In this document: one piece after another, positions 1,530 to 64,000 of the stretch
How the letters are laid out: each line of letters opens with the position of its first letter
How positions within the stretch are numbered: position 1 is the stretch's first letter
Source: Echinostoma caproni
Lineage: Eukaryota > Platyhelminthes > Trematoda > Plagiorchiida > Echinostomatidae
DNA length: 64,000 nt
Assembly: GCA_900618425.1 (NCBI GenBank)
Contig: UZAN01039937.1
Coordinates: 1-64,000, forward strand
Reading direction: 5' to 3'
Translations under genes and position numbers: made by a program
Notes under the pieces: generated by a model
What the model was told of the DNA's origin: nothing
Database searches by the model: none
Seen by the model: only the letters and a program-made list of their open reading frames with translations

Positions 1530-1700
1530 AACGTTTTGAAACTTGAGATGGACTTGAGACGTGCCTCAAGACGTGTCCCCTTGCTCTTTGTTGGTTAAGA
1601 CAAACATTTTCACCGCATTTAAACGCATTCAAATAGTGGGGAATTAACGATCTCTCAAGGAGTGGAACCCAAGCCGAATATCAGCACCAGTGCCTGGTGC
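1530..1700 (-). mobile_element. Decayed short retroposon copy (hammerhead family)
   Basis: Read on the minus strand, the block from about 1700 to 1590 (GGCACCAGG..., a CTCCTTGAGAGATC-like segment, then an AATTCCCC-like segment) aligns with the copy at 4.1 kb and with the 5' side of the copy near 58.8 kb. The following GGGACA...GCAC segment aligns with the stretch entering the hammerhead at 58.5 kb. The ribozyme core is destroyed: CTGACGAG has become CTCAAG. This is an ancient, non-functional copy. Boundaries are approximate. Confidence 0.4.
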
Positions 1701-1951
1701 CTGTGAAAAACTGAATGTTTTAATCCAAACATTCACCATCTAAGTTGAGACTTTACTGATTCAAGCAATGGCCACAGGGTTGTAAGAAATCCACACCTGG
1801 GGAAAATGGTATGTCATACGTTTTAATTGAGTCGGCCAATTGTTTGTTTTGTTCTGTATCTTTCAATTGTTTCCATAGCGAATGAATTATCCTTTACAAA
1901 GTATGTCAAAAACGCTTATATTTTTTGATTATTTTTATTTCCAATGTTTAG

Positions 1952-4029: not shown

Positions 4030-4175
4030 GAGTGACGGTGGTTTCCTCCTGTTTAGGACTCGTTAGTGGTGCGTACTTTTTCTGTCCCTGTACGTACTAA
4101 TCTTTCCATCGCTTTTGAATGCACTGAAATAAGGGAAAATCAATAATCTCTCAGTGAGTGAAACCCACACCAAAA
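4030..4175 (-). mobile_element. Old short retroposon copy with decayed hammerhead
   Basis: On the minus strand a CACTCACTGAGAGATTAT-type 5' segment is followed by ACAGGGACA, then GCACCACTAACGAG, TCC-loop-GGA and GGAAACC. This parallels base by base the 58.5 kb copy (GGGACA, GCACTGCTGACGAG, TCC-loop-GGA, CGAAAC). The core CTGACGAG has become CTAACGAG (conserved G lost) and the stem I partner is not complementary, so self-cleavage is not expected. Stem II (TCC/GGA) and GAAA remain. Confidence 0.5.
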
Positions 4176-7100
4176 TCCTGGTACTGTGAGTGAGTGAATG
4201 GATTGTTTCAGATTTGTCACTATCAGTTGACTAATTGTAAATTGGAAACTATTCAAAGTCTACACTGATTTGATGTAATTCAGTTGAGTAGGTGGACGAC
4301 GTAGATAATGACTCTTACGATATTCATCAACTTTGAAAGGGGAATGGAATTGGAAGTCGGTTAAGAACTAAACCTCCAAAATCATTCGATAGACCCAATC
4401 AAAATGCCGGAGTACTGAAATGAACGAACTCAAATTTCAGGCGAACCGGATAATTTTAGGATAGCACGTGTCAGGTCTATGGGATGGATACTGTGGTATA
4501 CTTTGGATACAGGAGATCTAAATGCTTGTGTGATGAGTTTAATTGTGACTCGACTCCAACATTCGGATCCACGGACACCGAAAAATTATTTGCATACACA
4601 TGAAAAGACGGTCCGATCTTAACAACGGCTTCAAATTTGCAGCATTATAAACGTTGGATGACAAGTAATCCTGAAGAAGTGCTGACGAGTGGTGAATAAA
4701 TGCAGCTGGAAAAATGTCAATATCAACCTAGTGCTCTAATTCGTCTCTCCTCATTCCACGAAGAAGACTGGTGGCTTGTATCGGGGACTTGCTACCCCAG
4801 TGCTCAGAATGTGATCGAAGAGCCATTCCTGTGGGCCGTGTTTATGGTCTTGAACAAGGAGTTTACACCATCAGCTCTATCGGACATATTTCCAAATTAA
4901 CAAAGGCCAGCCCCTGCCGTTGGGATAAATACAGACGTTGGAATAAGCACTATCATCCTAAACCGTAATAACCGTGTGAGAAAAAACGAACAGAGAAAAT
5001 CTGAACAGTGACAATAGAGCGAGCGAAAACCAAAAAGAAGGAGCTCTAGGAGCATCTTTGAGGAGAGAAATATTTGCGGGCCAGATGATACAACGCCATA
5101 ATTGAGAAGGAGATTCACGGTCACTGGTAACAACGGAATCTTTGACGTAAAGAAAAAGGTCAGGATATTTTTTGTTCGCTTGATTCGGTATATAATGATA
5201 GTTTAGGTTTGAGAGTAACCGCGACAGACCCTATCGAAAGATTTACGAGAGATAGAGCGGATGCTCGTATGTTCAAAGTTCCCCATTATTATAAACATCT
5301 GTTGATGTGACGGCGAGAGGTATAAATAAATCAAACATGGCATTTAGTAAATGTCCAGATGGAAATCAGTTACAGCTGGAATATCTTCGATAATTGTGCC
5401 TGGCCTTACGTTGGATATTATCCCAACAGTATTGAAAAATGGCGTAGGACTTGACACACCAGGAGGCTTTGCCGAATGCGTGAACAATGCCCCTGGTCCT
5501 AATTGCTTTATTTTGTGTTCTTACTGATCCGTTATCGGAGGACATTGGTTAAGTCTCACTATCTGGGAGACAGTGCGCCAATTCTGATGTGAAGCAATAA
5601 GACAAGAGTTAACATAATCAGAACAGGTGCAGCTTGTCACCCTATTTGCTTGCCTGTTTCGCCGGGAGATGAAGAGGAAGAACTTAGAGAGGCAGTCAGA
5701 TGTTCCGGTGAATTTTTGATGAGCTTAGCGATCTAACAGGTTTGTCGCCTAAGAACTCGAATAAAGGCTTTGAAATAATGCGAAATAATTGGGAAGTGAA
5801 TAAAATGAATTGGAAATTAGTTAGACCACCCTGACTTCGAGACACCAAAAGCATTTGGAGTCCCAGTGGATGCACCCGTTTCAATAATCCACATACATCA
5901 TCGATTGTACCCTGCAATCACAATGTAGTCGTACCGATTAGGCATAATCAGTGATAAAGAATTTTGTGTAGTTCATCTCCGTCGGGAAATCTATCACTTA
6001 GTATATGTTGTATGGAATGGTACTGATCTATTAGGGGTGATGCAGCAAGTCATCAAAATTGTTACACAAATATCAACTGTTTGCCGAAACCGAATAAGGT
6101 ATATTATTGACCAGAAAACCATAGGGTTCCTTTCAATCATTCATTACACTTTATTGGGATATCAAGCATATCACTGCATAAAACTGAAGTGTTTCTGTTG
6201 TACGTAAAACTTCAAGCTACCTGAATGACCTGGTTTCGTGAATCCCTCAGATTCGATCAATAGGGATAGACTACTGGATCTGTGTTATATATCTTCTTTA
6301 GAGTGAAGAGACGTTTGCGTCTGGGTACACTGAAAGCGTAAAGGTCGTATTTTGTGCATCCACTCGAGATAAAGCGGATTTATAGTTCATAAACAGTAAT
6401 TTAATTTACAAGGGCAAATAATTTGATACACGCTAGTTTTGTCTCGGTCAATTTAATACTAAAGAAATTTTGGGTCAGAATAACAACCTGATCTACTGTT
6501 TGATTGACAGTCAGAACGGGTTCATACCTTCTGTTGAATTAGTTCCACTGAAGCGAAACAAAATTATGTTCTGGGATGGAATGCATTTTTAATTTGCTGC
6601 TTTTTGTGTGTGCAAATTTAAGAGTTTTTGAAAAGTAATGTGCGGTCACTTCAAGGATGTTAGAGACGAGATCAACGATAACCCACGGAACTCCACCCAC
6701 CGACATCACTCACCATATTTCGTTATAACGAAAAACACAGCAGTAGCCCAACTAAGAATACTGCGTGACTTTACATCGATGAAACATTTCAACGTTCCCG
6801 ATGACGCATTACATTTGAAATATCGAATGGATTGTTGACAAAATGCTCGCAATATGATTTGTTAAATGATGTGCTTTTCGTCAAAGACTTGTAAGCCATC
6901 GCTATTGAAAAACTTCGCCACTTTTTATTGTAATGCAGGTGAGTCTTCCTAATAATCGAACTGCTTGATATAACAACGGTTGCAGAAACTCAATCATCTC
7001 ATACACGTTCAATCGAATTCCACTTTTTGGTCACCAGTAAAGTAGTACGTTCAGTCTATTGAGCTCTTCCAAGGCTTGTCAACTCCAGGCCCTCGAGTTC

Positions 7101-9061
7101 GGTAGCCGATTTCCATAAACGAATGTTTTGCCGTGGTTACCGTGAATGCCTCCGTTAAATTGTAGTAAAAGAAATCGATATATAAACAAAAACGAAATGC
7201 TTTTTTGTGCTACAAATGCGGGTGAGGTAACGGTGTAAACAGTGGGATAATGTGAAGGTTAAAGTTAATCATGTATTGAGACAACAAATCTCATTCAGTT
7301 CAACTTCCTTCTTGGCAGCTTCAGAGATTCAGTCTTATCGCAACTGCTCTCTAATCCGTGATTTTGGTGAACGTATAACAGTTCTCCTCTTTCCTCACAA
7401 AAGGAAAATAGCCGTAGTTCACTTGGATATTTAAAATAATTGGATCAGTGAAGCAGCATCTTCCTCTAATGCTTACACACATTCATGAGCGAAATTGCCG
7501 AATAAAGTCGATGTTTGACGATAAATTCAAACACTCGTTACCAATTTACAGCGTCTTGCTTTGGTTAAAATCCACCGTTAGTTCAATCCGTGGAAAAACC
7601 ACCGGATTGTGCGGGCACACGCTCAACTCCTCCGGACTCACCGATTCAGCTGCTCACGTTCACATCGTCCGTGAGGCTTCCGTGAATTGCCAGGAGAAAA
7701 AGAACTGTGCGATAGCTGAATTATTCAACAATCAACAGTTCGCATATAACGGCTTCCTCGATTCAGGATAGTGGTTCAGCTGCAATGTTGGATTGGTTGC
7801 TTGAAGGATGGACAAACGATACATCCCGGGAATTTACAACCACATACGTTCAAAACTCATCGTTTTCGTTTATACTCAGTTGTACAAATGCATAGAATGC
7901 CATCGATGCATGAATTGCCTAGTAATATATATAAACTCTTTTGTCTGAGTAACTACATCGTTTCTAAATTAAAGAATGATGCAAATTATGACGTGCTTTA
8001 TCCATCCACTTGTGTCCGAGTTTGAGTCCAAGTAGCTTCGATGAATATACACTACTAATTACCTCTAATATAAATGAAATACTAGCACAGTACTTTAAAA
8101 GCTTCTTAGTCTTGACTGTGCCTTATGAATCCACTTACATGATGACATTATCGATTACCTTCATTGAGAAAGCGCAGGTAAAGTCGGAGGATACAGCAAA
8201 AATGAGGTTACTAGTTGGTGGTTGGGAAGGGGCTTGGAATAGACGAGCTATAGGTGCTGACGACTGCCACTACTACTAAGAATACCACCGCTACATATCC
8301 GCAAAGTCAATGATAGACTGAGGAGGATCATTCGTTATTAAAAGACCGGCACAACTACAGAGCGGTTAATTGGAATATACTGAACAAACCACGTCATCGG
8401 CAAGATTTGATTTATAGTTTCAACAAAGGCACTTCATCATTCGTCAGACAGTTCGGTATTCCTTTCGAATCTTCTGTTGGCATACAAATAAGTCCGTTCA
8501 TTCGCTCTCAGATGTCTCGTTCATTTTGAAATGTCCCGAAAATTTACCGATCGACTCAGAATGAATGCACCAAACTTACTATTTGACGATGCTAGCAGTA
8601 TCTCCCTACACTAGCTTTCTGTTCCGGTGCGTTATATATCGATCCAAGTTACCAGACCTGCTATCAGCGGCTGAGGTAATGGGTCTATCTAAGGATTTTT
8701 CTTGATCGTAGTGTTGATACAAACCCAAGACAAAAGGCGTGTTAGTTGGTGTGATATATGCATTTCCCTCCAATATTCTCCGTGTTTTAAGCTCATTGCT
8801 TTACAATACGGAATTACATTCCTTTCATAAGCTTACGGATAGGATCGCAAAGTGTGACCACGTTTTACAAATTATTCCGTCATCTGACGAGCGACATGCG
8901 TATAATCCATAAAAGGTTCTATAAAATAACCTTTGAAACCTGTCTTTCGTTTGGCTATGATAATATTAAAAAGAAGCAAAAACAGAAGTAAAACTCACAA
9001 TTCAGATTTAGGGTGCTCCTATATGTTTCACTTTCAGATTAAAATCCAAGCTGCAAAATAG
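4176..9061. other. No supported gene
   Basis: Several medium open frames (4424-4620, 4733-4967, 7252-7434, 7448-7771, 8010-8279 on plus) have coding-like composition but no recognisable domain, no consistent chain of splice sites, and competing frames over the same bases. CAG|GTGAGT at 6930 is a good splice-donor match preceded by a short open frame of about 24 codons; no partner exon is evident. Confidence 0.35.
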
Positions 9062-38700: not shown

Positions 38701-41700
38701 TCCAATGAGCAGAGGTGAAGATGCTGTTATTTTAATCGAGATGGGGTACAAATAAGATTATCTTTAAGCGAGAAATTGGGAATAGACAAACAGGGGTAAG
38801 TTAGTGTCTCAAGAATAGTGCTTCCGGCTCTGCGATTCCAACTGAAATTATTCGTGATGTTTTTTAGTTCATAATTTCAAATCCGATTAGTTTCACTCGG
38901 GTTAACTCGCGCAAATGAATTGCTAATGTGATTGCTTTCACTCCGGCATGAGCACGTACAATTAATCCAAATTGAAATTCATCGTCTGTGGTGCACATGC
39001 CAGGTCATTTGAATTTTTGTAACGGACATGGTGAGTTCGATCACCACGAACAGCTCCCAGGATTCAAAATAAAACAGGATTTCGGAATAACAATGAACTG
39101 CAATGAGAGCAACAGAAATCAAACATCTCGGATTTTAATCTCTTCACAATTGCTGACGTAGAACAATTTGGTGCATGTCCAGTTCACAGCGTTGATCAGG
39201 CCTGCGTGAACGGACGTGTATCGTTAGAGAGTGATTGTTCTCAGATGCTTTGAGAATACAATTAAATGTACATATAGTACAGTTTTTGATAAACAGATTT
39301 GATATCAGAAAAGCCGTAAACAACCAAATTTATTAGGGACTATACAGTTTCACTCCCTTTGTTGTCGTTTTTGAACAGGCTGAACAAATAACCCTGAAAA
39401 ACTGAAAAATTGAATTCCCCAGATAAACTTCAGGAGATAGAATAACAGAGCTAGATTACTCGAATTATACTAAGTCGTACTTCACTACTGTATCTCTGCC
39501 GTATTTTACCAATTAGGATGCAGCAAAATCTGCCTTGGCATAAATCATGTAACGTGAGAGTTGTTTTGTACTCTCTTCTCAACTATTTGTAGGCTTTGTT
39601 GCAAAAAATCAGTGTAAACCAGGAACGTTCAATTTTTATTCCCATCCAATTTTATCATCCGTTGCACAAAATCATAGATATCTCCATTTTTTGTTGTTGT
39701 GAGACTACAAGCCTACTGTCAATTCACCAAAGAGCTAGTCAGATTTGTTTGTACGCTTTATTCTAAACATAATTCTGAATCAATTTATCCAATCATAATA
39801 AACTGTTTACCGTTGATTCATGCGTGTGTGTGTATGTGAACTACCATCAAATGTTACTAATATAGCCCAGCGTTTTGGCACGTGCAGTCCGGGTTTTCTC
39901 CTCCATTACTATGCTTCATTCTGACATGAGTAGGGACAGACCAGTTGTGTTTTATTTGTCACTGTGAAACAGGGTAGTTCAACATTTTCGGAGTCTTCCA
40001 TTCAACACCTTTTGTATTCCCGTATGATGTTCACCGCATTAAACAACGTAACGAAACATGTAGCATTTGGGTAAAATAAATTACCTATATTGTCATTACA
40101 GCTAGGTACAAAAATGCCTAGTGTTAATGAGGCAAATCGCCAGGTAAACCTGTGAACCCCACATCGGAACGTTACATTTGCCGGCACAATTGGCGAGACA
40201 TCCTACAACAATCTTTGTCATTTTGGCTGTGCTACGAAGGGCATTTTCCCCCAATTTTTCTAATGTTTATGTTCAAACATACCAACTGCGTAATCAGCAT
40301 TCACTTTCAATAATGCTAATATACGGTCTTTGTTTATGAACCTCAAATCACTGTCCCGGTGCTACTACCACTGAGGCACTCTCTTATCACCTAATCGATC
40401 TCCGGTAGCATTTGTAAAGAACCGTCACCTTTTATGAAGTAACCTATTGTGTTAAACTTCACCATGTGGTAACCGCTCTCTGTTTATCCGTTTATTATTG
40501 TATTGTGATATATTCAAATCCCGATAAAACATCACCATAGAAACTTGTTGGTTCCTCTTCGTCAGTTTGGCTATTGGTTTACAGAAAACACTCGCTTGAA
40601 CTGTTTTGAGTACAATTGCATCTTTGGATTTTTTCACCATGAATCCAATCTCTGTGTTGAAGGTTCTTGGAGAATTAGTTCTTTAATGTTAGGGGAATCA
40701 TCGAACCATGTTCATGAATTGGTCAAATTTTAAAGAATCCACTTATTGTGGATTTAGACAAAGAACATTCCCATGGTAACCCAAAGTTGATTATTTGATC
40801 ACAAGTTGTATTCGTTCGGAACGTATATTTAGCATCTATTTCATTAGAGTTCGTGAAAATTGCTTTCACATCTGTTTTCCTATCTTTGCGTTTAGCAGTA
40901 CCTCTTCTCTTGTGTATTAGTCTTTGAACGAATGTATCGGTAGCATCTAATCGTACATAGTTTTTCTCAGTCTTTTGTTTCATTTGGTCTTTGATTCTCC
41001 ACATTTCATCTTTGATAAACCATAGCAAGTGAGTGATAAATTGCCAAACTCTTAAACAGCACGATTCAAACCGCTGACCAGCAAAACAGATCCTGACGTT
41101 TGTGAATTCGCATCGGATAAAATAATAACATTTAAAATTAGCAGCCGTAGTCAGACACTCGCTGATTTATTCGAAGACCCTGTAGTTCAGGGGTCAAGAT
41201 ATGACTATTAAACTATCTTGTTCATAAGTGGTCTACCAAGAGAGACACAAAAAGAATATGTACTGCTACGGAGGATGAAGCACATTCAGTGCCCTCGAAT
41301 TTCATTATAAACGAGCTCACCAAAGGGAATTTTATGCAGCTGTGAGAGAATGAATGAAATATCAAGACAGAGTGATTCACCTAGTAAGGTCAACGTACAA
41401 ACTTCGATATATGTGGGTTTGCACGGGATAAAATGTGAATGTATTTCACTAATCACTGAATACTCTCCACAGTACAAGGGACAATGCACTACAAATAAAC
41501 TGTTTTACAGCTGCCCATCACGTAACACGTGATGCAAGTAAAAATAAATCCCACTTTATTTAAACTACGTACGTAGTATTCGGACTGAATGTATAAATGA
41601 AGCATCCAACTGGTTGCAGTGTACTTTAATCAACCGTTTAACCCCGGATTAAATCTATACCTTCTCCCTACGTTTCACAATTGCGGATTGTACACTTTGA

Positions 41701-48239: not shown

Positions 48240-49490
48240 ATAATTTTAGCTGCGGGCGACTTGGGTTTTACATCATTGGTATACCATAATCATGTCTCCT
48301 CTGATGCGCCCGTAATGATTGCAATATAACATCAATCTTTCTGCGTATGAATAACTATTCAATCACCTTGCCATTTTGATGGCCATCCTTTGTAGATGCT
48401 CCAGCATTTTATAATCACGCTGTAGCAATTGATTCCATGCCTGGATAGCGTACTCTGTGAGTGGGCAAATGTAACCTGACAGCAGACGCGGCGAAAGCGT
48501 TGACTCAAAACTATCCAAAGACCCGCCTAAGCAAACCGACATTCCTTCTAGCTGCATTCGATACCTTGGCGCAGTTGAGTAAGCAGATCATGTTTTCTTG
48601 AATGACGATGCCCAGGTCCTTTTCACTTGCGACGTGTGGTAGTTGTTCATTTCCGAGGAAATACGAAAGTCGCCCTCTGTGTCATAATGATATAACCTTA
48701 CACTTTGGCATATTGAATTCAATATCGTTCAAAAGAGACTGTAAATGAACTGCTTTCAGCTAGTAAGCCCGCTGGTTGCGTCACTGTATTCGATAATTTG
48801 GCGTCATCTGCAAACAGTAATGGCTTTGACCCGAGGCCAAAGTCACCGGTTAAGCACAGATCCTTGTGGAACCCAAGGGGTAACGTCCGTATAACTGGAA
48901 AGCAAATCAGAAACACTAACCGACACGGTCCGATATCGAAGAAATGATTTAATCCAATCCAATGAGGCCCCGAATACCGTGATTATAGAGTTTCCGCAGT
49001 AGAATGTAGTGGTTCACCCGATCGAACTCTAAGAATTCTAGAGAAATAACGTCTACCGCGTCGCCGTCACCAGCTGCTTTTGTCCATGCTTCTCGTGCGA
49101 TAGGCAAATTGGTAGCGGAAGATTGCTTCTGTCGGAATCCATAATGATTCTGTGACAGAATTTTGTACTTCTCTAGGTTTTCCATAAGGGAATCTGCTAC
49201 TATGGACTCCAGGACTTTGTACAGCACTGAAAGATGGGTGACAGGACGGTAGTTAACGGAATTGCTACGGCAACCGCCTTTGTAAATGAGTGAAAGCACT
49301 CTCTGCTTCCAGGACGGTTGGATTGCAGTGTGATAGAACATCCCCTGGAATAGGAAGGCTAGTAGCTCGGACAATTGATTTCCCAAGCAGATAAGGGTTT
49401 GGGGATGAATACTGTCTGCACCTAGTGATGAATTCTTCCTGAAAGCCCACAGCTTTGCTCCAATCTTTTCTGTAGTAAATTATACAATAG
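48240..49490 (-). pseudogene. CR1/jockey-type LINE reverse transcriptase, decayed
   Basis: Read on the minus strand from 49480: TEKIGAKLWAFRKNSSLGAD, QLSELLAFLFQGMF, QPSWKQRVLSLIYKGG, VNYRPVTHLSVLYKVLESIV, YGFRQKQSSATNL, then VISLEFLEFDRVNHYILLRK (49386-48949). After frameshifts come VPQGS near 48870, the FADDAK box at 48814-48797, and YAIQAWNQLLQRDYKMLEHL with a RRHDY-type tail at 48557-48240. This is the ordered palm and thumb of a CR1/jockey-clade LINE polymerase. The first catalytic Asp segment reads LEFLEFD instead of LDFSKAFD. Endonuclease and 5' part are missing. Confidence 0.9.
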
Positions 49491-58208: not shown

Positions 58209-58503
58209 AATCATCTAGACACCACCGTACGCGTTAAGTTCCAAAGTCTATCAACACTCTAAAAATCTTTACCGATAAGGTGTGTATTATATTCCTGCAC
58301 CTGTTCATATCCGAAAAGGGATAAAGGACAAATAACGAGACAGGCTCACGAAGGACCCATCACGGGATTTAAGTAAACAGTTACCGGTGCAATTGTAGCC
58401 TTGTCACTACAAAGGAAATGACGCGGTTAATTTCAGTACCCATGGACAATTGGAAGTAGTCACGAAAATGTCCTTCTCTCCTCGCCATGCGCTTCTCTAA
58501 AAA

Positions 58504-58720
58504 TTAGGAAAATCTGACATTCTCATGGAAGTGTTTGTGATAGTCGAAAATGAGCACTGGACATCTGTTTCGTCCTTTTTGGGACTCGTCAGCAGTGCAT
58601 ACGTTGTGTGTCCCTGACAGGACTCTAACCGAAAACTTTCGGGTGAGGACTTTCAAACTTACTCCTGTGCTGCAAGGTCGGCGGTCGTCACCTTGTGGGG
58701 ATGGCTGAATTAATTTCACG
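58504..58720 (-). mobile_element. Short retroposon with tRNA-like head and hammerhead
   Basis: On the minus strand a TTGCAGCACAGGAG segment (A box-like) is followed by GGTTAGAGTCC (box B-like), CAGGGACACA and the hammerhead at 58598-58554, then a TCGA-containing 3' part. The order and spacing match the 340-bp copies at 60.9 and 63.2 kb and the decayed copy at 4.1 kb. Ends are approximate; the 5' side merges with the near-palindrome at 58718-58886. Confidence 0.65.
58554..58598 (-). ncRNA. Type I hammerhead ribozyme
   Basis: Minus-strand order: stem I GCACTG (58598-58593), core CTGACGA (58592-58586), stem II GTCC-CAAAA-AGGAC, core GAAA (58571-58568), short stem III closed by AC/GT around AGAT, cleavage triplet GTC (58562-58560), stem I return CAGTGC (58559-58554). 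All conserved core positions (CUGANGA, GAAA, NUH) are present and stem I pairs perfectly over 6 bp. It should self-cleave after GTC when transcribed from the minus strand. The layout closely resembles the natural schistosome hammerheads of the Sm-alpha retroposons. Confidence 0.85.
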
Positions 58721-58886
58721 GTAGAAAGCTTGGATTGGTTCATTCGATTGTTAAGAGGCACCAGGCACGCTTCGGTGTGGGCTTCACTCCTTGGGAGATC
58801 GCTGATTCTCCAAGGAGGGGACCCCAAAACTAACAGTACCTGGTGCCCCTTAACAATCAAATGGGCTAATCGAAGCTTTCTGCCGT
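58718..58886. repeat. 169-bp near-palindrome (head-to-head repeat)
   Basis: 58718-58768 and the reverse complement of 58836-58886 match at about 43 of 51 positions (shared AGAAAGCTT, GATTGTTAAG and GGCACCAGG). The centre continues the symmetry: CTCCTTGG-GAGA faces TCTCCAAGGAG across about 7 bases. The same GGCACCAGG...CTCCTTG segment belongs to the hammerhead retroposon copies at 1.6 and 4.1 kb, so this looks like two 5' portions of that element fused head to head. Confidence 0.75.
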
Positions 58887-59040
58887 AAGATGATATTCTT
58901 TCCTGATGAATCAAACCAATAACTAACTTTCCTTTCGATCTCCTAAATAAAAGCACAACGCTGCGGTTTCCCGATGAAGAAGTTATGAAACATACTTGTT
59001 CACCATATAGTGTTGATATTTTCCATATTTTCAATTGAAC

Positions 59041-60035: not shown

Positions 60036-61027
60036 ACGCATCCCTCGCGCTCGGGCTGCAAATATGCTAATCGTGCAGCAGTCGTTGAATTCATTCCTCT
60101 CAACCGAACAGTATACGTAATGTGTTCCAGGTGACCCTTCGAGGCGGTACTTGTCTTGTTCCTTTTTGCCCAATATCGACCATTATGTTGATTTTCCTCT
60201 TTAACATAAATCCGACAATAATTCATTTTACATTTTAGCAGATTATGCTTACCAAGTGAGTGTTAATCAAATAGGGGATCTGCTTTTCACCTGTGAGAAA
60301 TCGAGAAACATGCTTCTCCTCAAAAGACTGTGTGCATTCGGGATTATCTCGATTTAACTTCGTGGGTGTATTCCTTTTTGTTAGACTAAAACACGACTGT
60401 TTTCTTCTTTTATGAGCACTTTGACACTCATTGATCAAACACTGTGGACTGAAAACCATTAGTTGCAGGATAACTGTGAAACCGGTTAGCATAGGCAAAC
60501 ACAAATCTTTACAGCATAGTGATCTTAAGAAATATGATCGCCAGTAATCCAAACACAATCAGTCTAAACCTAACGGAAAAACATAGAAACTCAGTAACTC
60601 GATACTACGTTAATCTACTCTACTGCAAGTGACCTGTCAATCGAGCGCTCAAATCTCTTAACATTTTCAAAATCTACAATTCTGGGGTAATTGAAATTGA
60701 CTGATATGACTATCTTTTCAAATTTACCTTCAGATACAATCCTCAGATCATCGTTTCAACCAAATAAACCAACATCGAGTATCCCACACACACTGCTCGC
60801 AATTAACTGTGAGTCAAATTCGAAGATAAATCAAGCCTGGTAGATATGTAGCAGGTCACCTCGTATCTTGCTTGGAAGTCCGACCTGATGAGAGGCTTTC
60901 AATTAGAGATAACAGATTGTCATCTGTGTCTCCATTCGTTGCTATCGGGCCAAATGAACTGACTGACTATCACTGAAGACGACACCTGAACAAACAAGAA
61001 TTGGCAACTTGGTTCAGCCATAGTATG

Positions 61028-61092
61028 AGCTGGTTGGCACAGTGGGAACGCACACGCCCTCCATGCGATGGGTCCGGAGTTCAAATCCCGGA
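61028..61092 (+). promoter_or_regulatory. Internal pol III promoter-like boxes (left arm)
   Basis: TGGCACAGTGGGAACG fits box A (TRGCNNAGTGG). GGAGTTCAAATCCCGG fits box B (GGTTCGANNCC) and is flanked by GTCCGG/CCGGAC pairing. The spacing of about 45 bases is tRNA-like. It would drive transcription through the hammerhead just downstream. Confidence 0.6.
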
Positions 61093-61107
61093 CGGGATGG
61101 TAGATAT

Positions 61108-61154
61108 GCACTGCTGATGAGCTGTAATAGGGGCGAAACTCAAGTTTTTAGTGC
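61108..61154 (+). ncRNA. Hammerhead ribozyme, weakened (left arm)
   Basis: Stem I GCACTG, core CTGATGA (61114-61120), stem II region GCTG-TAATAG-GGGC, core GAAA (61135-61138), C-TCAA-G stem III with GTT as cleavage triplet, stem I return TAGTGC (one G-U) after two extra T. Core residues are intact, but stem II keeps only two Watson-Crick pairs and one G-U, so activity is doubtful. Confidence 0.6.
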
Positions 61155-61231
61155 TTTCGAGTGTATTGTTGAATCGATGAACTGAGGATTGTGTGTGAAG
61201 GTGAAGTTCCAAGGATACTGAGTCTAATCAA

Positions 61232-61980
61232 ATAATTCTAGGGTACCCAAGCTGTAGTACTTTCCCCGTATTTATTTTCTGCGTATGTTAGTGACTTGTC
61301 TGCTGGAACCTTTACTTCTTTCTTTGAATACATCAATGGTGTGGTTTTATATCTGGTCATCTTCGATTCTTGTGGTCTTTCAGAATTTTCTAATAGCTTG
61401 GAAAACGTTCGACAATTTCATGCCACATCCGGCCTTTCTATTTATCGATCCAAATGTTTCGACTGTCTTTTTACATTACCCCGTTCTTCTTTCCTTTCCG
61501 AACCTATTGGATCGGAACAGGTATCCTGAGTAAACTGAAATAAATATCTGGGGGTATTTATCGATGCCAATCGTTATTGGACCTCTCAAATCCAACACAA
61601 CATCAGTAAGCTTCGATTATTTTTTTTCATGTCCGTACACTTCGTCAGCTAAGTATTTGACAAACATAATTATTTCCAAATCCATGTACCGGTGTGTGTT
61701 TCCATTTTACTTCATTGTTCATCCGTTGTTTTTTCTCACTCTCCGAAAACACTGTTTTGAACTGCTTCGACGTGGACTGACCATCATTAGCTGCGTCAAA
61801 CCCGCTGGAGGCGTAAGTAACCAACCTGTGCGAACGTTATTTAAATTCATGTGAAAAGGGTGCACATAAGATTTCTATCGACTTCACGCATCCAATAAGC
61901 ACAGATTCATTTTTCTCTTCCCATCCGTCCATTATGGCCCCCAATACCTTTGTATCAGAGCCTAAATAAAAATATTATAA
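61232..61980 (+). pseudogene. LINE reverse transcriptase fragment (CR1/jockey-like), dead active site
   Basis: Plus frames give TQAVVLSPYLFSAYVSDLSA (family GVPQGAVLSPLLF), then FTSFFEYINGVVLYLV where the YADDVV catalytic box should be, GLSIYRSKCFDCLFTL, KYLGVFIDANRYWTSQIQHN, and in a later frame LLRRGLTIISCVK. Both catalytic aspartates of YxDD are replaced (N and G), and frameshifts separate the blocks. The fragment begins at the GV(P)Q motif, directly at the inner edge of the left 340-bp arm. It is a different LINE from those at 11.3 and 48.2 kb. Confidence 0.8.
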
Positions 61981-63203
61981 ATCTGCGATACCTTCGTTAG
62001 CGTGTATTATAGTTAACAAGGAGTAGGTTTTCACAGACTGGTAACAGTTTTCTGATTTGAAACTCTTCCTTCCTTACAATTTGTAAATTTGAAGTGAGAT
62101 GCAGGCTTTATACCCACAGGAATCATTACAATAACAATAACAATGTGACCGGTATAGACAGTACTATAAGATGATGAAGACAGAATTTCGCCATCTGACG
62201 TTCCAATCAGCTTGATCCACGATTAGAACTACAAACTAATCAGTTATTTTTTGGATTTCTCCAACGGAAGGGAACCGGGATCAATAAAATGTAGAAATAA
62301 GTAATATCTTCTTCATTGTTATGAAGAAGGCCAAAATTCTGTGAATGAATATGGTTCCAGTGGTACGCTGTTGTGCTTAATTATGTGATACATGAATTCA
62401 GCTATATGCTGCATGTTACAATTAGCGGTAACATTATTACATGGGACGTAATTTCATCTTATAATTGGATTACCGTCAATCTTTCTTTAATCTCTTGTTC
62501 TTTCGTTTTGCTTGCTAAGCGTTAATCGAACCTAATGTTTTGGTTGGGGTATTTCAGGAATCTCGGTTTGCTCAGCTGTTTTTTTGGAGGACCAAAATTC
62601 ACTAAAATCTATGTGAGATGTCATTTCCATACCAGATTGCAGAGGTCTACTGCTGATGGTAAAGGGGTTCAGCACGGTTTGCTTACGGTTTTTCTGTCTC
62701 TTGGTACTAAAGTTCCTAATATTGAATATGTGGAACCGAAACTCTGAAGACCCAGTTACGGTGTCATTGGTCAACACCTTCGGCTGTGTGACAGACTGAT
62801 GTGGATCTCACTGCATGCATCAACTTTGGATCACTGTCTTTAATGTGGATCCTGCTATTTGCAACCTTAAAGCTTCACCTATTCACTTATTCCTCTACGC
62901 AGTCGTTTGGCTAAGCAATGACACTCCCCATAATTTACTACTCTCAACACATTGCAATGGATTACGCAAAACCAATCTAGAAATTAAAATAGACTCGAGT
63001 TAGACAGATGAGCATTACGACTGCGCGAACTATTGATCACTCCCAATGTTTGACATAAAATATCTTATTCCTCTACATGTATACTACCTTCTTTTATCTG
63101 CTCAATCCTATTTACTAGCACTGAGTCCAGGCTGATGGTTAATCCCGTTACGCATTGAACTCATAGGTACTTGTGAGTAGTGGTGTGGGATAATTGATAT
63201 CGA
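61981..63203. other. Spacer between inverted arms, no supported gene
   Basis: Small CAATAA-rich stretch near 62130-62145. The frame pair at 62532-62777 is open on both strands and unassigned. Nothing links it to the LINE fragment upstream. Confidence 0.4.
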
Positions 63204-63543
63204 TTGATTCGACTCAGTATCCTTGGAACTTCACCTTCACACACAATCCTCAGTTCATCGATTCAACAATACACTCGAAAGCACTAAAAACTTGAGTTTC
63301 GCCCCTATTACAGCTCATCAGCAGTGCATATCTACCATCCCGTCCGGGATTTGAACTCCGGACCCATCGCATGGAGGGCGTGTGCGTTCCCACTGTGCCA
63401 ACCAGCTCATACTATGGCTGAACCAAGTTGCCAATTCTTGTTTGTTCAGGTGTCGTCTTCAGTGATAGTCAGTCAGTTCATTTGGCCCGATAGCAACGAA
63501 TGGAGACACAGATGACAATCTGTTATCTCTAATTGAAAGCCTC
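63204..63543 (-). mobile_element. 340-bp hammerhead retroposon, minus copy (right arm)
   Basis: Mirror image of 60892-61231 (each left position plus its right partner sums to 124435). The shared 63-codon open frame in both arms translates identically, and no mismatch was seen by eye until the inner edge (GAATCAA versus TAATCAA). It contains the same tRNA-like boxes and hammerhead on the minus strand. Confidence 0.72.
63281..63327 (-). ncRNA. Hammerhead ribozyme, weakened (right arm)
   Basis: Identical to the left-arm ribozyme, on the minus strand: CTGATGA at 63321-63315 and GAAA at 63300-63297, with the same weak stem II. Confidence 0.6.
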
Positions 63544-64000
63544 CCACCAGGTCAGGACTTTCATGCAGGTTACGGACTGATTTGCCAAAGGACCTACAAC
63601 GATGATTATGCACAGGCCAGATCGTTTACCAGCATAGTTCCTTCTTTCTCAACTACCGGATTAATCGCAGTCTTGCAGTGTTCACATTCAGTTTTTCATC
63701 GCTAAGCTTTCGCAGATGGATATCCCTGTTCCTTCAATGATTCTATCGTTTTACATTGTTGAAATTCATTTTCATGACTTCTGCCATCTGACTTTACGGA
63801 TTTGGGTGGTCCAGAATTTGGGGCAAGAAAATTTATGTGTGCAGGAACTGTTTCCTTCGGGCATAGAGATTGTGGAGGTTCTTCTCACTGGAGTGGATAT
63901 AAGGTTCATACTTGCATTCAAGCAGGTGCGTAGTCATTGTTTTACTTGCCATTTAAATTATGTCAGCATTTACCTATGCAATCCAATGGTACGGAACGTC
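63544..64000. other. No supported gene
   Basis: Lower similarity to the outer flank of the left arm continues for a few tens of bases (ACCAGGTCAGGACTTTCATG region), then ordinary sequence. Confidence 0.4.

Follow-up and report, generated by a model that had tools for sequence, protein, structure and literature searches.

A type I hammerhead motif that very probably belongs to an old, diverged copy of a tRNA-related SINE

Hammerhead ribozymes (for hammerheads in general, see PMC6155905) are known from short repeats in blood flukes and other animals. Type I hammerheads are reported from the schistosome SINEs SMalpha and Sjalpha, with >38,000 hammerhead matches in S. mansoni and >5,000 in S. japonicum (PMC2770079); the S. 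mansoni unit is 333-335 bp long and variants of it cleave in vitro (PMC8490949); and in S. haematobium, 7 of 16 small RNAs that resemble hammerheads coincide with SINE/tRNA repeats (PMC5993326). Accounts of metazoan retrozymes describe repeats of 150-450 bp with a type I hammerhead (PMC7229834), and hammerheads with a palindromic helix III that act as dimers are described from newts, axolotl and Aedes (PMC7229834; PMC3088659, Figure S8 legend). Here we analyze a hammerhead motif within a 64,000-nucleotide stretch of DNA (the window; C994:1-64000) and conclude that it is very probably the hammerhead domain of one old, diverged copy of a tRNA-SINE (family 1, with a unit of ~320 bp) of the SMalpha or non-LTR retrozyme kind. 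Given the literature on schistosome SINEs, retrozymes and dimeric hammerheads, the family-1 element is therefore of a kind already known (SMalpha-like SINEs, animal retrozymes).

The hammerhead motif and the repeat unit that holds it

The sequence-only reading had placed a type I hammerhead on the minus strand at 58554-58598, and its coordinates, core, stems and cut site were all correct, with every part at the place claimed and the GTC at 58562-58560. The Rfam model Hammerhead_1, the check it had proposed, covered the motif end to end (model positions 1-45 of 45) and scored it at 51.8 bits, above the gathering score of 34; for a search of both strands of the 64-kb window this gives E 1.4e-10. 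The motif has the RF00163 features of a CUGANGA, GAAA and NUH core and an open stem I. Read from 58598 to 58554, the minus strand is GCACTG CTGACGA GTCC CAAAAA GGAC GAAA CAGATG TC CAGTGC, and its parts, identified from sequence and Rfam except where stated, are:

58593-58598 with 58554-58559, minus strand: stem I (6 bp, GCACTG/CAGTGC)
58586-58592, minus strand: CTGACGA
58582-58585 with 58572-58575, minus strand: stem II (GTCC/GGAC)
58576-58581, minus strand: loop II (CAAAAA)
58569-58571, minus strand: GAA
58561-58568, minus strand: helix III octamer ACAGATGT
58560, minus strand: C17, with the predicted cut between 58560 and 58559
58602-58605, minus strand: 5′ strand of distal helix Ib, partner 58549-58552 (columns 20-23/75-78 of alignment A2, described below)

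Stem III consists of ACAGATGT only, which as a monomer gives 2 bp and a 4-nt loop. Folded as a single strand, a 57-nt segment of the window containing the motif had a fold z of −2.67, a value reached by 4 of 200 shuffles, and its minimum-energy structure did not quite match the hammerhead, since the short helix III was replaced. Helix Ib, which would frame the internal loop of stem I whose predicted contact partner is loop II and which covaries in the families described below, has one C × A mismatch in the window copy.

We searched the window's own genome (426,516,399 bases, 426.5 Mb, in 12,689 contigs) with the minus strand of 58440-58920. The search gave 2019 first-look candidates, of which 40 were scored, with 111 matches for the unit. 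An alignment of the window copy with 30 other copies showed the order of family 1 to be a tRNA-like head, then the hammerhead, then about 30 nt, and direct hammerhead spacing gave the unit a length of ~320 bp. A strict core pattern occurred 526 times in the genome (273 + 253), compared with 0 for the reversed control, and the Rfam model run over the genome gave at least 74 scored matches from 66,429 first-look candidates, with 74 of 74 above the cut-off. The family-1 features in the window are:

58525-58812, minus strand: family-1 SINE unit holding the hammerhead (genome search with 58440-58920; alignment with 30 copies)
58620-58630, minus strand: pol III B box GGTTAGAGTCC, degenerate with 1 mismatch (several or many family copies read GGTTCGAGTCC)
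58662-58672, minus strand: A box CAGCACAGGAG, damaged (2 mismatches); it precedes the B box by 42 nt
58804-58898, plus strand: inverted partial family-1 copy, foldback partner of 58713-58794
1577-1768, plus strand: decayed family-1 unit junction, a unit end and then the next unit start (matches 1577-1612 and 1637-1768)
4034-4098, minus strand: decayed family-1 hammerhead with broken core CTAACGA, below the Rfam cut-off (25.4 bits, E 0.077, for 4034-4063)
4138-4230, plus strand: inverted family-1 piece adjoining the decayed hammerhead at 4034-4098

The tRNA head became clear only once the genomic copies of family 1 were aligned. The A box reads TAGCTCAGGGG in many copies and matches exactly in 19 of the 31 rows of the alignment, all of them from other copies than that of the window; 29 of 31 rows carry a B box with no more than one mismatch, and the distance from A to B box is 42-43 nt in five family-1 rows. 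Taken alone such box pairs are weak evidence, as 16 pairs with at most one mismatch in each box occurred in 20 shuffled windows. ARAGORN, run on the window and on 25 loci, called no tRNA. A tRNA head common to the window copy and a second family (family 2, below) was rejected on direct alignment, since the score of the window copy's upstream part against family 2 was not significant, being reached by 67 of 300 shuffles.

At some loci one unit directly follows another, with a linker of about 23 nt. Direct hammerhead-to-hammerhead spacings of 320, 320, 320, 321 and 331 nt were found in 5 of 55 loci, and 38 of the 55 have one hammerhead only. Inverted neighbours (12 pairs, one of them counted twice because loci L086 and L091 overlap) outnumber direct ones at unit spacing. 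In the window, 58713-58794 and 58804-58898 form a foldback with an 82-nt arm that is 78% complementary, and the fold z for 58739-58865 is −9.7. Foldbacks with an inverted partial family-1 unit beside a unit (58713-58891 in the window) were likewise seen at L056, L061, L068 and L082, that of L061 being centred on an N, and the linker of several family-1 copies contains a 12-bp palindrome, GCATTTAAATGC. A further stretch at 41067-41267 on the plus strand is weak and possibly a very old family-1 remnant (E 4e-4 with one query, unlisted at 1e-4).

Age and decay of the window copy

The description of the surroundings as otherwise decayed repeat DNA agreed with the comparison to the family majority: of 234 positions flanking the motif the window copy has changes at 39, and of the 45 within the motif at 2 (Fisher p 0.037). 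The sequence-only reading had taken this contrast to indicate either recent insertion or selection for self-cleavage, and neither explanation held up. A recent insertion is at odds with the distance to other copies: among the 40 candidates scored of 2019, the best-scoring other genomic copy is 82% identical to the window copy, and the longest matches of other family-1 copies are 74-83% identical. The terminal branch of the window copy is the longest of 31 (0.153, or 0.173 without the motif columns, where the median is 0.052), in a comparison with 30 other copies (L050 and L054-L082, with L045-L049, L051 and L052 left out) that were found largely through their similarity to the window copy, a choice that favours less decayed ones.

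Those 30 copies also bear on selection. They show only marginally fewer changes in the motif (58 of 1350) than in the flanks (405 of 6856; odds ratio 0.72, p 0.02), and 19 of the 30 have intact cores. The 12 core positions are changed in 20 of 360 cases and the rest of the motif in 38 of 990; because the core is thus no better kept than the rest of the motif, selection on single copies, including selection of the window copy for self-cleavage, is not supported. The reading in which the window copy itself is under selection as an active ribozyme, for example in processing a host transcript, draws on the excess of changes outside the motif given above and on a probability of 0.014 for two or fewer changes in 45 at the copy's own flank rate, and we consider it quite unlikely. 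The probability becomes 0.08 if the generally lower rate of the motif (0.72 times the flank rate) is used; the copy was picked out for being intact, and a copy noticed for its intact motif is expected to look conserved; damage is seen in its A box, in helix Ib and in the palindrome of helix III; and no gene was found around the motif in a scan that covered six of the window's ORFs.

Chance survival of the core, together with being noticed for it, suffices to explain an old copy with an intact core. We conclude that the window copy is probably a passive relic that owes its intact core to chance and has damage to the palindrome, the A box and a pair of helix Ib. In place of the palindrome ACAGCTGT, found in 18 of 31 aligned rows, it has ACAGATGT. 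Because the copy has lost the palindrome and one pair of helix Ib, we would give weak or absent cleavage the same odds as fast cleavage; a transcript of the copy may cut itself slowly as a monomer. As a locus it is unremarkable: nothing suggests that this old copy serves its host.

A second SINE family and covariation of the helices

The window also contains copies of family 2:

60881-61239, plus strand: family-2 SINE copy; it has tRNA-like boxes, and its hammerhead at 61108-61154 is degraded (genome search, alignment)
63199-63553, minus strand: second family-2 copy, inverted, with a degraded hammerhead at 63281-63327 (genome search, alignment)
60689-60769, minus strand: tail of a third, older family-2 copy (sequence matches)

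The hammerheads at 61108-61154 (plus) and 63281-63327 (minus) are identical and off-consensus, and neither was listed by an Rfam scan of 60600-63700 at E ≤ 10. The two copies that hold them are inverted with respect to each other and 99% identical over ~350 bp, with diverging flanks. We rejected the idea that this pair represents a young active subfamily: a genome search with family 2 (3133 first-look candidates, 40 scored) gave long matches outside the window that are only 84-89% identical. Their 99% identity points more readily to an inverted duplication within the locus, to gene conversion or to an effect of the assembly. A similar inverted, nearly identical family-2 pair is present on contig C3785 (L086/L091), and a weak match at 8001-8095 on the plus strand (E 3e-6) is possibly a very old family-2 remnant.

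In most of 22 family-2 rows, counting both copies of the window and two rows that repeat a place, the hammerhead reads GCACTA CTGATGA GCTC TAATAA GAGC GAAA CTCGAG TC TAGTGC, with individual differences. When three family-2 loci were scanned with Rfam, one hammerhead of L102 scored above the Hammerhead_1 cut-off (37.3 bits), and those of L094 and L099 and the second one of L102 matched a related hammerhead family below its cut-off.

For analysis of the helices we aligned 62 distinct hammerheads (alignment A2), 46 of family 1, including that of the window, and 16 of family 2. They derive from 78 hammerhead places in the loci and the window, two of which are the same places fetched twice (L086/L091 overlap); left out were six identical duplicates, seven sequences with length changes (among them the window's family-2 copy), two partial matches and L067:713-800. 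Across the three hammerhead helices and helix Ib, 90.1% of cells were paired, compared with a mean of 79.7 for shuffled alignments and 24.0-48.5 for slid controls; both-side changes numbered 121 versus 37.8 in shuffles, and the covariation score was 0.335 versus 0.161, the covariation being mostly the difference between the two families and so representing few independent events. Two of the five measures were not above the shuffles (pairs with both-side change, 10 versus 9.8; further pair types, 25 versus 26.9), and RNAalifold predicted no pairs on this alignment.

Between the families, both sides change at four helix Ib pairs, the last stem I pair and two stem II pairs, and also at both of the inner helix III pairs (AU/UA 44/16 and GC/CG 38/15). 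These inner pairs cannot form within one ribozyme because no loop would be left, and their covariation therefore points to pairing between two ribozymes. The helix III palindromes of the families are weak as monomers. When two molecules were folded together, the minimum-energy structure was a double hammerhead for both family sequences (the majority form being used for family 2), but for the window copy it was not. Extended copies folded as single strands gave structures that compete with the hammerhead. The two families share little sequence outside the ribozyme region. They have different palindromes, ACAGCTGT and ACTCGAGT, and each has a compensated distal helix Ib, which suggests that the dimer is the selected active form. 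We hold it a fair possibility, somewhat short of even, that a double hammerhead on tandem transcripts is that form and that cleavage is gated to multi-unit RNAs. Because the helices of the two families covary, selection does seem, on this comparison of sequences, to have acted on the families' master copies.

The two hammerhead-bearing SINE families, with their strong covariation and, for family 1, hundreds of strict cores, should be useful for testing monomer versus dimer action of SINE hammerheads and the role of helix Ib.

Other origins, a putative replication cycle and known relatives

An alternative origin is a Penelope-like element, the hammerhead then being part of its terminal repeat or of a fragment derived from it. 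Type I hammerheads are a feature of these elements, which often co-occur with retrozymes (PMC7229834), and direct and inverted partial units do occur here. The family-1 unit is instead ~320 bp long with tRNA-like A and B boxes, and whereas PMC7761336 describes the hammerheads of Penelope-like elements as minimal, with helix III or loop contacts missing, the families here keep helix Ib and a helix III palindrome, the latter weak as a monomer; we regard this origin as very unlikely. That the motif is a chance hammerhead-like string has a vanishingly small probability: a loose structural descriptor, which finds one site in the window (58554-58598), does by itself yield 1 match in 150 Markov-shuffled windows together, but chance is refuted by the genomic recurrence and the covariation, and the Rfam E-value also stands against it.

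A Pfam scan of six window ORFs gave one sub-threshold RVT_1 match, a reverse transcriptase fragment at 48949-49479 on the minus strand (26.3 bits versus a curated cut-off of 29.6), and a protein search with this fragment gave no match at E ≤ 0.001. IMG/VR contigs with hammerhead cores matching CTGANGAGTCNNNNNNNNGACGAAAC contained 47 motifs in 44 stretches (L001-L044), with two motifs each in L011, L027 and L041; in 28 of the 47, stem I is open and 5 bp or longer. A stricter pattern had 0 matches in IMG/VR. These contigs gave nothing that bears on the window motif and were set aside.

For the tRNA-SINE families, we envisage a cycle in which polymerase III would transcribe master copies from their internal boxes and the tandem RNAs would cut themselves after GUC at each hammerhead. 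Cleavage would proceed best as a double (dimeric) hammerhead, with the palindromic helix III pairing between two units. The resulting 5′-OH and cyclic-phosphate ends could be joined into a circle by tRNA ligase, and a borrowed reverse transcriptase would insert the copy. These steps are those of published models for animal retrozymes, as set out in PMC7229834 and PMC7761336. The frequent inverted partial copies and the linker palindrome suggest, although this is a guess, fold-back during reverse transcription.

Compared with known systems, the families resemble the dimeric hammerheads of newts, axolotl and Aedes (PMC7229834; PMC3088659) in having a short helix III palindrome whose full pairing requires two ribozymes; here the dimer is indicated by covariation and cofolding of two SINE families only, and the window copy is without the palindrome. 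With the metazoan non-LTR retrozymes of coral, mussel and axolotl (PMC7229834) they share a type I hammerhead and, at some loci, direct tandem units, but they differ in that their tRNA-like head, with its A and B boxes, is clear and in that most loci contain a single hammerhead or inverted neighbours and no long arrays. SMalpha and Sjalpha (S. mansoni W36.2) are alike in being short, tRNA-related, high-copy repeats with a type I hammerhead (PMC8490949; PMC2770079), and the unit of ~320 bp compares with 333-335 bp for SMalpha (PMC8490949), the likeness being one of description. In contrast to SMalpha, two families are present here, their stem and helix III sequences differ, and the window copy is diverged. 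The traits of the SMalpha type are nevertheless found: pol III boxes upstream of the hammerhead, the 526 strict cores in the genome and the ~320-bp unit.
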